53,169 bases of DNA from Natrinema thermotolerans DSM 11552 (GTDB taxonomy: Archaea > Halobacteriota > Halobacteria > Halobacteriales > Natrialbaceae): NCBI GenBank assembly GCA_000337115.1, contig AOIR01000063.1, positions 63,619 to 116,787 on the forward strand, in the 5' to 3' direction. How positions within the stretch are numbered: the first letter of the stretch is position 1; each line of letters starts with the position of its first letter. The notes beneath the pieces were generated by a model, which saw only the letters and a program-made list of their open reading frames with translations, had not been told where the DNA came from and searched no databases. This document shows positions 28,830-31,533 of the stretch, one piece after another. The translations under genes and the position numbers were made by a program.

Positions 28830-30017
28830 TTACCGGATGACGTCGACGCCGTTCTGGCGGTCGACTTTCTCGCGGCCGCCGTCGCTTTGGGCACCGAAGC
28901 CGGAGCCGCCGGCTTCGACGTTGTTGCTCGCGTCGAAGTCAGCCTCGTTGATGCCCTCGATGCTCGCGCGGGACTTGTCGGCCTGTTTCTGGGTGGTGGG
29001 ACCGAGTACCTGCGCGCTCTGGACGCCGGTCATGATCGCCATGACCCGGACCTTGCCCTTGTAGGACTCCTGGATGCGCGCGCCCCAGATGACGTTCGCC
29101 GAGGCCTCGAGGCGCTCGGTGATGTTGTCGGCGATTCCCTCGGCCTCTTTGAGCGTGAGGTCGGGGCCGCCGGTGATGTGGACGAGCCCGCCGCTCGCGC
29201 CGCGGTAGTCGACGTCAAGCAGCGGATGGTTCATCGCGTCCTTGACGACCTCGTCGGTCTTGTTCTTGTCCTGGGTCTCGCCGACCAGCATGACTGCGAC
29301 CCCGCCCTGGTTCATGATCGTGGACATGTCGGCGTAGTCCAGATTGATCAGGGACGGTTGGGTGATCGTCTCCGAGATCCCCTTGACGGTCTCGGCGATG
29401 ATCTGATCCATCACCGAGAACGCCTTCCCGATCGGCAGATTCGGGACGTAATCGAGCAGCCGGTTGTTGTCCAGCACGATGATCGAGTCGGCCTGCTCGC
29501 GCAACTTCTCGAGGCCTTCCTCGGCTTTGACCGTGCGGGCACGTTCGACGTTGAACGGCGTCGAGACCATGCCGACGACGATCGCACCCTGCTCTTTGGC
29601 GATCTCCGAGACGACGGGGGCGGCACCCGTGCCGGTGCCACCGCCCATCCCGGCGGTCACGAACACGAGGTCCGCGTCGCCGAGGACGTCCTTGATCGTC
29701 CCCTGGGCCATCTCGGTGGCGCGTTCACCCATCGAGGGGTCGCCACCGGCACCGAGCCCGTTGGTGAGGGATTTGCCGACGAGGATCTTCGTGTCGGCCT
29801 CGATCATCTTGAGGTGCTGTTTGTCCGTGTTGATCGCGATCGTATCGGCACCGTCGACGCCGATGTTGTACAGGCGGTTGATGGTGTTGTTGCCGGCACC
29901 GCCACAGCCGACGATGACGATCCGTGGATCGCCGAACTCGTCGTCGTCCATCGAGACGTCCATCTCCCGGGCCTCTTCCTCCGCGTTCTCTAAGGCGTCC
30001 TGAACGATATCCTGCAT
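28830..30017 (-). CDS. ftsZ2: Cell division protein FtsZ2
   Basis: A tubulin-like GTPase that constricts the division ring in haloarchaea. The 395 residues include [17 protein letters not shown], the tubulin signature [12 protein letters not shown] at about 123-134, and the T7 loop region [15 protein letters not shown]. The N-terminus [16 protein letters not shown] and the short tail GVDVIR fit the FtsZ2 rather than FtsZ1 group. It starts two bases after the cdrS stop, so both are on one mRNA, matching the cdrS-ftsZ2 operon described in Halobacterium. Confidence 0.95.
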
Positions 30018-30019
30018 CG

Positions 30020-30199
30020 TTACACCTTGGCCCAGTTGCGTTTACCGGACTGCTCGTTGGGAGCCTCCCGCTGTTCGTTGATCATCTCGCGGACGGCCGA
30101 CCGGATCGCCTCGCTCCGGTTCGGGAACTCGCCCGCGTCGACCAGTTGCTCTACTTCCTCGATCTGCTGTTTCGGGATTCGCAGTGTCACACGCTCCAT
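30020..30199 (-). CDS. cdrS: CdrS, short ribbon-helix-helix cell division regulator
   Basis: A 59-residue protein: [20 protein letters not shown], then [14 protein letters not shown] and a basic tail ending NWAKV. It is a complete ribbon-helix-helix (CopG/MetJ-type) domain with little else. CdrS of Halobacterium and Haloferax is this kind of protein and controls ftsZ2 and other division genes. The stop lies two bases before the ftsZ2 ATG. The region in front contains repeated GTCTTAC elements. Confidence 0.9.
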
Positions 30200-30219
30200 G
30201 GTTGTATTCCCCGTTGGGG

Positions 30220-30391
30220 GTAAGACGGTGGCGCGCCCCTGTCAGACGCGGCGTGTCTTACGTCGAAACCACCCGAAGTCGGGCGATTTCCCGTCTTGTC
30301 GACGGGTGTAAGACAATCCGTCTTACGCGACTAAGTCGATGTTTGGCACAGATAATAAAACTTTCCCCGAGGCTGACTTTCAGTGTCTTAC
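30220..30391. promoter_or_regulatory. Array of five GTAAGAC/GTCTTAC elements between cdrL and cdrS
   Basis: GTAAGAC occurs at 30220-30226 and 30308-30314. Its complement GTCTTAC occurs at 30255-30261, 30320-30326 and 30385-30391. Copies 30308-30326 form a perfect inverted pair with a five-base spacer. A minus-strand TTTATTATC (about 30351-30359) could be the cdrS TATA box, which would place transcription start near that pair. Another copy is about 20 nt before the cdrS ATG. Ribbon-helix-helix dimers bind short inverted repeats, so CdrL or CdrS is the natural candidate binder. Confidence 0.65.
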
Positions 30392-30396
30392 ACCGG

Positions 30397-30981
30397 TCAG
30401 CGCTGGCGAGTGTCCGCCTCGAGAACGTCCGCTGCCGGCGTCCGACGACCACAACCCGGACAGAACGACCAGTCCGAGCGGACCTCGTCGCCGCAGTCAC
30501 AGAACAGCCGCCGGGCGGCTTTCTCGCCGCAGTTGGGACAGTAGACGTGATCGCCCTCGAGCGTCTCCCCACACTGGGTACAGGCAGCGTCCGTCTCCTC
30601 GCGTGGCTCCAACTGTCTGTGTTCGGCGTCGTCCGACGCCGGGTCGCGCGATCGGTCGGCCTCGAGTCGGACGTCGTCGACCGACTCGCCGTGAGCGCCC
30701 GTCAGCGAGACCGAGACGGTCACGTCCCGGTGGCCGTCGGACACGCGCGAGCCCGCGGCCTCGAGCCCCAACTCCCGCAGTCGGGCGTCGAGCCGTTCGT
30801 CCACGCGTTCGCGAACCAGGTCGTCGATCGCCGTCTCCCCGTCACGTTCCGACGCCGACTCGCTCCCAGCTCCCTCGAGGTACTCCCGGAGCGCCTCCCG
30901 CATCGCCTCGCTCTTGGAGATCTCGAGGGCCTCGAGTCGATCGACGAGGTCGTCGTCGGCGCGGAACGTGATCTTGCTCAT
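30397..30981 (-). CDS. cdrL: CdrL, long ribbon-helix-helix protein with zinc ribbons
   Basis: A 194-residue regulator. Residues 1-40 (MSKITFRADDDLVDRLEALE, then SKSEAMREALREYL) form a ribbon-helix-helix DNA-binding domain. The middle is acidic and probably flexible. The C-terminal 60 residues hold a double zinc ribbon with CTQC, CPNC, CDC and CPGC knuckles. Gene order and domain plan match CdrL of Halobacterium, which acts on the cdrS-ftsZ2 operon. It is separated from cdrS by 197 bp containing the repeated elements and so is probably transcribed partly on its own. Confidence 0.85.
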   Translation of the reverse strand: MSKITFRADDDLVDRLEALEISKSEAMREALREYLEGAGSESASERDGETAIDDLVRERVDERLDARLRELGLEAAGSRVSDGHRDVTVSVSLTGAHGESVDDVRLEADRSRDPASDDAEHRQLEPREETDAACTQCGETLEGDHVYCPNCGEKAARRLFCDCGDEVRSDWSFCPGCGRRTPAADVLEADTRQR

Positions 30982-31105
30982 GCTCGAACTACCTCCCTGT
31001 TGTCACGCATCCCATATCAATCATGCTGCCGTTCACGCTCGTGACACGCCACAGCCGGTGCGAATAATAACCCTTATGTGTACGAGGGCGGCTACGTTGG
31101 AGTGC

Positions 31106-31179
31106 CCGCCCTTAGCTCAGACTGGTAGAGCAGTCGACTGTAGATCGACTTGCCCCCCGTTCAAATCGGGGAGGGCGGA
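31106..31179 (+). tRNA. tRNA-Tyr (GTA)
   Basis: Folds as a complete cloverleaf. The acceptor CCGCCCT pairs with AGGGCGG, followed by discriminator A31179. The D stem is GCTC/GAGC, the anticodon stem is GTCGA/TCGAC around the loop CTGTAGA (anticodon GTA), and the T stem is CCCCG/CGGGG with loop TTCAAAT. There is no intron and no encoded CCA. AATAATAACC about 40 nt upstream is probably its promoter. Confidence 0.96.
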
Positions 31180-31533
31180 CTCGGATTCTCGCCGAAGCAC
31201 AGTCGAACCGGATACTGGCGTTTTCGTCACTCATAGCGACCTTACTGCTGATTTCGCGTTTCCAATATCGGAGGCCAAATTCGGAGTGGAACTTGGTTCC
31301 AGTGCCGGGTAGACGCCTGCGGGCGAATTTTGGAGTCGTCGGGGTGGTCAGCGTGACGATCATGCCAGGGCACTCGATAGCAGCGTCATCGACGCCCGTA
31401 CAGAGCGTCGCATTTCGGTGGCGCCCCTTCCACTCGAGTTCAACGCGGCGGTCGCGTTCGGGGGAGTCCGACTGTCTGACGACCGCTTTCGGAGACGGAT
31501 ACCGGGGCTGCCCGTCGCGAAACGTGAGACGGG
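31180..31533. other. Spacer after tRNA-Tyr, no gene seen
   Basis: This 354 bp stretch has open frames on both strands, but they lack acidic composition or a promoter. I find no repeat of the tRNA 3' end that would mark an integrated element. It appears to be ordinary intergenic DNA at moderate GC. Confidence 0.35.

Follow-up and report, generated by a model that had tools for sequence, protein, structure and literature searches.

A conserved array of GTAAGAC boxes ahead of the haloarchaeal cdrS-ftsZ2 operon, a probable ribbon-helix-helix operator that doubles as helices of the leader RNA

The window analysed here is a stretch of 53,169 nucleotides from Natrinema thermotolerans DSM 11552 (assembly GCA_000337115.1, contig AOIR01000063.1). 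Between cdrL and the cdrS-ftsZ2 operon it carries five exact copies of the 7-mer GTAAGAC, or its complement GTCTTAC, within 172 bp. The copies probably serve twice, as operator boxes for ribbon-helix-helix (RHH) proteins and as parts of helices in a conserved leader RNA, and so set the dose of CdrS and FtsZ2. Our weighing of this explanation rests on the class-wide conservation of the central pair of boxes, on the copy counts in leaders together with the 11-bp arrays seen outside the class, and on covariation of the box flanks.

The copies lie at 30220–30226 (+), 30255–30261 (−), 30308–30314 (+), 30320–30326 (−) and 30385–30391 (−). The genes cdrL, cdrS and ftsZ2 are all on the minus strand, in that order, and on this gene strand boxes U, 1 and 3 read GTAAGAC and boxes 2 and 4 read GTCTTAC. 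Boxes 1 and 2 form the central inverted pair, GTAAGAC-5-GTCTTAC, at 30308–30326. The order along the gene strand is cdrL stop, box U, TATA box, predicted start, boxes 1 and 2, box 3, box 4 and cdrS ATG, with the outermost copies 5 bases past the cdrL stop and 20 bases ahead of the cdrS ATG. A sequence-only reading of the same DNA had already pointed out the five exact 7-mers in both orientations, the perfect inverted pair, and the copies just after cdrL and close to the cdrS ATG, and each was reproduced. Along the gene strand, the features are:

30397–30981, minus strand: cdrL, encoding a 194-aa protein with an RHH domain and a double zinc ribbon (Pfam RHH_1, CdrL_M, DZR)
30385–30391, minus strand: box U, GTAAGAC, between the cdrL stop, 5 bp away, and the TATA box; not part of the predicted transcript
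30353–30368, minus strand: predicted TATA box TTTTATTA (30353–30360) with a BRE-like stretch GGGGAAAG upstream (from the sequence and the spacing between TATA and pair)
30320–30326, minus strand: box 1, GTAAGAC, where transcription is predicted to start; forms the 5' arm of helix P1
30308–30314, minus strand: box 2, GTCTTAC (gene strand), the inverted partner of box 1; forms the 5' arm of helix P2
30291–30305, minus strand: predicted leader hairpin A (folding; the segment between boxes 2 and 3 beats shuffles across genera)
30265–30290, minus strand: predicted leader hairpin B (folding; the same segment between boxes 2 and 3)
30255–30261, minus strand: box 3, GTAAGAC; 3' arm of RNA helix P2
30232–30250, minus strand: predicted leader hairpin C (folding; the segment between boxes 3 and 4 beats shuffles across genera)
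30220–30226, minus strand: box 4, GTCTTAC (gene strand), 20 bases ahead of the cdrS ATG; forms the 3' arm of helix P1
30020–30199, minus strand: cdrS, opening the operon and encoding a 59-aa RHH regulator (Pfam RHH_1; PMC7439475, PMC8406309)
28830–30017, minus strand: ftsZ2, tubulin-like division GTPase (Pfam Tubulin and FtsZ_C)

The whole window holds 8 copies where shuffles average 3.56, and at the shuffle rate the Poisson probability of 5 copies in 172 bp is 1.7 × 10−12, or 1 × 10−9 with a rough correction for position. An artefact of chance or composition, in whose favour nothing was found, is contradicted by the shuffles, by this probability and by the class-wide conservation, and was dismissed as having a negligible probability.

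Both small proteins flanking the array belong to the RHH family, as had been proposed, since their Pfam RHH_1 scores (34.8 bits for CdrS, 23.9 bits for CdrL) exceed the curated cut-off of 20.5; the metal-binding NikR domain was found by Pfam in neither. The strand residues R3, T5 and R7 of CdrS were invariant in 136/136 sequences and K3, T5 and R7 of CdrL in 32/32 aligned sequences; by analogy with Arc and NikR, we take these residues to face the DNA. The AlphaFold model of CdrL was poor (mean pLDDT 64, pTM 0.25), and its zinc-ribbon part (of 30397–30981) gave weak matches (E ∼0.06 to 0.9) to RNA-binding zinc-ribbon proteins in the PDB. A tRNA-Tyr gene lies at 31106–31180, divergent from cdrL.

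The spaced inverted pair was present in 374 of 391 haloarchaeal genomes, in a single copy in 372, compared with 8 of 391 (counted from the rows listed) for a control in which the pattern was read backwards. Fourteen of the 17 genomes without the exact pair retain a variant, with a spacer of two (six genomes), a direct GTATGAC (three), GTCATAC (three) or single changes (two). The other three (G362, G229 and G348) gave weak or no matches to CdrS-like proteins and CdrL, and the locus was not seen in them. A second GTAAGAC inverted pair was observed in two genomes (L138, G239 C1:32069; L141, G363 C98:121869). Two checks had been proposed on the basis of the sequence: the conservation of GTAAGAC copies in the cdrL-cdrS gap across haloarchaea is borne out by these counts, and the search for more inverted pairs in the organism's own 3.9 Mb genome returned the pair once, at this locus.

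A scan for CdrL gave 148 stretches encoding a relative, the best 80 of which were taken. The central inverted pair was present in all of these best 80 of 148 and in the window, and an exact box 4 in 79 of the 81. Their 200-bp leaders hold 362 exact copies, distributed over 81/81 loci, against a shuffle mean of 2.75, and exact copies were absent from up to 800 bp of cdrS-ftsZ2 per locus at the 81 loci. Wherever boxes 3 and 4 are exact, the orientations follow the order > < > <.

The geometry of the promoter was examined in 92 leaders, comprising these 81 and those of 11 genomes without CdrL (see below), using a simple A/T score over the region 23–44 nt before the pair. The best TATA-like word was centred 28–33 nt before the first base of the pair in 92/92 leaders, so the pair begins at or just after the predicted transcription start, in agreement with its earlier placement near that start. 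A 5' UTR of cdrS is mentioned for Haloferax in a figure legend of PMC8406309, in the part available. Upstream of the TATA box, 63 of the 92 leaders have an exact copy and 88 a copy with at most one mismatch; that this copy is conserved although it is not part of the predicted transcript points to a reader of DNA. The spacer between boxes 1 and 2 is 4 or 5 in 91/92 haloarchaeal leaders, placing them about one helical turn apart; only these two boxes are ∼11 bp apart, the others mostly being spaced by ∼26–68 bp and mostly not by multiples of 11. From the pair at the predicted start and the conserved copy upstream of TATA, a DNA-level role for the boxes is likely. By eye, GTAAAC/GTTTAC words are repeated between cdrL and TATA in the Haloarcula-type loci L047, L068 and L078.

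Folding of the window's leader (z −5.65) pairs box 1 with box 4 (P1) and box 2 with box 3 (P2) and adds three hairpins. In minimum-energy folds of single sequences, box 4 is the partner of box 1 in 81 of the 92 leaders, and box 2 in 9. As pairing of inverted boxes is a given, the flanks were tested instead of the boxes, taking about one representative per genus. For boxes 2 and 3 (43 of 47 representatives, the four lacking a recognisable box 3 being omitted), the flanks within a genome were complementary beyond permuted genomes in the P2 register only (z 5.8, compared with −0.9 to 1.9 in eight other registers and −1.3 to −0.2 for three control pairings), and this persisted without the genera that we take to form the Natrialbales (n = 31). 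The flanks of boxes 1 and 4 were complementary in the P1 register (z 4.8), with weaker values one base off (2.8 and 1.8). Among 12 same-orientation flank pairs, covariation was confined to box 2/3 (z 5.7) and box 1/4 (z 5.1), the others giving −1.7 to 1.6. A flank preference of a bound protein was rejected as the source of the complementary flanks, the covariation being restricted to the two RNA combinations.

Covariation was also measured in an alignment (A3) of 43 of the 92 leaders, in which the window and L001 are near-identical and the columns of boxes 1 and 2 are invariant by choice, all 92 leaders having been chosen with an exact pair. Two of the five measures on A3 were not above shuffles (6 versus 4.5 pairs with change on both sides, 74/500; 16 versus 17.4 further pair types, 451/500) and relatedness alone can raise the other three; for P1 and P2 together, 36 cells were changed on both sides versus 18.4 ± 3.1 shuffled (0/500), and covariation was 0.100 versus 0.054 shuffled and 0.022–0.063 slid. 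P2 was 83.6% paired in A3. The RNAalifold consensus on A3 yields only a local hairpin between boxes 1 and 2, and P1 and P2 were not recovered by it. This hairpin was rejected as the conserved fold, since it is nearly invariant, has no excess of covariation over shuffles on any measure, and is broken by the natural variants with direct GTATGAC (three g32 genomes) and GTCATAC (three g64 genomes). As box 2, the direct-orientation GTATGAC of three genomes of one genus breaks P2 as well.

The segments between boxes 2 and 3 and between boxes 3 and 4 fold better than their shuffles (mean z −1.49, n = 42, and −1.27, n = 41), whereas coding and far-upstream control segments do no better than shuffles (z −0.05 and −0.06, n = 47 each). 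In an Rfam 15 search over 29900–31300 only the tRNA reached the gathering score, and the leader matches no described family. Covariation supports boxes 1–4 also being the arms of two leader helices, and the covarying helices expected of a structured cis-regulatory leader RNA were found, in the flanks of P1 and P2. This RNA layer, in which four of the five copies lie in two covarying helices, was absent from the sequence-only reading. Post-transcriptional control of this operon has been suggested in Halobacterium, with a processing signal placed inside ftsZ2 and not in the cdrS leader in the available part of PMC8303175.

Related arrays were found outside the haloarchaea. Among 196 genomes of the phylum, CdrS was detected at E ≤ 10−8 in 33 haloarchaeal and 48 other genomes (81 in all), and 30 of the latter 48 loci, each with ftsZ2 immediately downstream of cdrS, were sampled; we label these relatives methanogen-type from their place in the phylum. 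CdrL outside the class was matched at E ≤ 10−6 in four genomes, each match being confined to the zinc-ribbon part, and the non-haloarchaeal locus L193 has a weak CdrL match (E ≤ 0.01). The 30 leaders hold 2 copies of GTAAGAC and 56 copies of GTCWGAC, the latter in 29/30 loci against a shuffle mean of 0.67. Boxes with up to one mismatch are spaced by 11, 22, 33 and 44 bp in 41, 46, 35 and 21 cases, any other spacing from 5 to 50 bp occurring at most 3 times, and 168 of 192 box pairs 8–60 bp apart in these leaders are separated by multiples of 11. This register fits the pattern that proteins tiled along one face of the DNA would leave. The RNA of these leaders also folds beyond shuffles (mean z −2.50, versus −0.03 upstream), as would be expected anyway because the boxes are self-complementary. 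Boxes of this kind probably predate CdrL, and the non-haloarchaeal array, from which the haloarchaeal box is one base away, would fit autoregulation by CdrS.

A candidate CdrS site was deduced from the promoters of ftsZ1. CdrS ChIP in Haloferax volcanii gave 18 sites, one of them 50 nt before the ftsZ1 start, and lists no site at the promoter of cdrS itself in the available part of PMC8406309; the promoters of dacZ and the proteasome are published CdrS targets, and three other named Haloferax species carry the GTAAGAC array. In the 130 bp upstream of 29 haloarchaeal ftsZ1 genes (L208–L236), two GTCWGAC-like boxes exactly 11 bp apart were found in 23/29 and an exact GTCWGAC in 25/29, mostly just upstream of a TATA-like stretch, and GTAAGAC in 0/29. 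These paired boxes are likely the CdrS site, a deduction made from the ftsZ1 promoters; the letters of the published motif are given in a figure of PMC8406309. GTAAGAC is one base from the CdrS-type GTCAGAC so deduced. CdrS may be the simplest constant reader of the array, against which the Haloferax ChIP speaks. A CdrS-type box, GTCTGAC, also lies inside predicted hairpin C (30241–30247, gene strand) and in 11 of the 43 leaders of A3; a CdrS-type pair was not found elsewhere in the window.

CdrL was sought in the 391 haloarchaeal genomes by scoring eight candidates per genome, which left 8 genomes without a match at E ≤ 0.001 and 7 with weak matches; these 15 were then re-examined. Three are those in which the locus was not seen, and G353 was set aside, since its contig breaks off within cdrL, the tail of which is still visible. 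With all candidates scored, the remaining 11 genomes, from seven genera, have weak partial CdrL matches at most. All 11 keep the pair, and their leaders hold 38 exact copies, with copies in 11/11. In nine of them a tRNA-Tyr gene and the pair are separated by 231–719 bp (779 bp in the window), and no CdrL-like frame lies in the gap; in the other two genomes the stretch examined contains no tRNA. L275, of this set, has a weak match to the middle of CdrL (E 9 × 10−4) far from the array. Some of the RHH-type hits in these genomes (nine loci, one from G353), inspected visually for a strand resembling that of CdrL, appeared to be other RHH proteins. The sister genomes G025 and G311, both without CdrL, are identical at 35/35 box positions versus 75% of the spacer; three other sister pairs also have identical boxes but spacers that are 91–99% alike, and are hence little informative.

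Since 11 genomes without detectable CdrL retain the array, CdrL is, on this genome comparison, not needed for the boxes to be kept. The boxes are not confined to genomes with detectable CdrL, as those of a CdrL-specific operator would be. The proposal of an RHH-type operator made from the sequence stands in part: the array is a conserved multi-copy promoter element that fits RHH dimers, and CdrL binding upstream of the operon is published, at the level of the region, for Halobacterium (PMC7439475, in the passages available). The further assignment of the copies as specific sites of CdrL does not agree with the 11 CdrL-less haloarchaeal genomes that keep the boxes, nor with the related boxes outside the class, where only zinc-ribbon pieces were matched. 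To call the copies CdrL's sites is at best incomplete, and CdrL as the sole reader is disfavoured.

It is unlikely that the array is an operator for CdrL alone, as first proposed, with CdrL dimers on DNA setting the output and RNA pairing as a by-product of the inverted boxes. The cdrS-ftsZ2 promoter is the only reproducible CdrL ChIP site in Halobacterium according to the available passages of PMC7439475, the pair is unique in the window's own genome, and the K3-T5-R7 strand of CdrL is invariant, all as this explanation would have it. It does not account for the array retained in the 11 genomes, from seven genera, without detectable CdrL, for the identity of the boxes in the CdrL-less sister pair against the divergence of the spacer, or for flank covariation solely at the two combinations predicted by RNA, which is unexpected from a flank preference of a protein. 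A somewhat smaller probability is given to a third haloarchaeal transcription factor that reads GTAAGAC, with CdrL and CdrS as incidental neighbours. Such a factor would explain why the boxes persist without CdrL and why CdrS ChIP did not report the cdrS-ftsZ2 promoter (PMC8406309, in the part available). However, the pair is single-copy in 372 genomes and the boxes resemble the deduced CdrS site, and the published occupancy by CdrL makes the local RHH pair the simplest readers.

The 7-mers might also be kept solely as the arms of P1 and P2, with no protein reading the DNA, which we consider improbable and a little more so than a third factor. The > < > < order, the flank covariation, the intrinsic hairpins and the pairing of box 1 with box 4 in 81/92 minimum-energy folds all agree with an element of RNA only. 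Were pairing the only constraint, the 7-mers could covary, but 374/391 genomes have boxes 1 and 2 in exact form; moreover, most leaders have a copy upstream of TATA, and the 11-bp register outside the class is without an evident RNA reason.

We thus prefer an operator that doubles as leader helices, which could work as follows. Dimers of Cdr-family RHH proteins would sit on DNA boxes spread across the cdrS-ftsZ2 promoter, one upstream of TATA, two at the start and one helical turn apart, and two in the leader. Dimers bound at or after the start may hinder transcription and so limit the dose of CdrS and FtsZ2. Binding of a factor at a promoter or downstream of it is usually inhibitory (PMC8406309, in the part available), which fits repression at boxes 1–4. 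Both this direction of control and the identity of the reader are what we infer. The boxes would descend from an older GTCWGAC array, probably read by CdrS itself; in haloarchaea the box would have changed to GTAAGAC and CdrL may have joined as a reader. After transcription, boxes 1–4 would act as RNA, 1 pairing with 4 and 2 with 3 in a fold adjoining the cdrS start codon, and this fold may tune the translation or stability of cdrS-ftsZ2. More tentative, at slightly less than even confidence, is the full proposal of a dual code, in which RHH dimers read four 7-mers as DNA before P1 and P2 form, one sequence setting both transcription and translation, and which evolved from the 11-bp-phased CdrS array by a one-base change and the addition of CdrL. 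In its boldest form, CdrL, with its RHH and double zinc ribbon parts, would touch both promoter and leader.

The RHH repressors omega and MetJ likewise act on arrays of short boxes, set in direct and inverted orientation close to a promoter; we know of no case in which those arrays double as covarying helices of a leader RNA. Another counterpart is the CdrL site of Halobacterium salinarum (PMC7439475), in the same intergenic region and with the same neighbouring RHH protein; the word 'motif' is absent from the main text and no box sequence is given in the passages available. The CdrS ChIP sites of Haloferax volcanii likewise involve a symmetric site near the promoters of division genes, at −50 for ftsZ1, but at cdrS-ftsZ2 the boxes are GTAAGAC, and the available part of PMC8406309 lists no CdrS site for that promoter. 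The operator of NikR, an RHH protein, is GTATGA-N16-TCATAC in the part of PMC7055735 available, and its half-site resembles GTAAGA and the natural variant GTATGAC; in contrast to the two half-sites 16 bp apart that serve one NikR tetramer, there are five boxes here and a central pair one turn apart. Among the open-licence papers listed, neither the titles nor the displayed parts of the abstracts describe the boxes or the leader fold. The present analysis adds the boxes and their conservation, their occurrence in genomes without detectable CdrL, and the leader fold.

How levels of the division tubulin are set in archaea is the question that this work addresses. The array provides a base-resolved, class-wide element at the promoter of the ftsZ2 operon, together with a candidate CdrS site; the leader fold is not listed in Rfam, and the haloarchaea without cdrL constitute a natural experiment. 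Use of the boxes in two layers could help to explain why transcript level and ribosome occupancy of the operon diverge in Halobacterium, and why the CdrL and CdrS data do not match between species.
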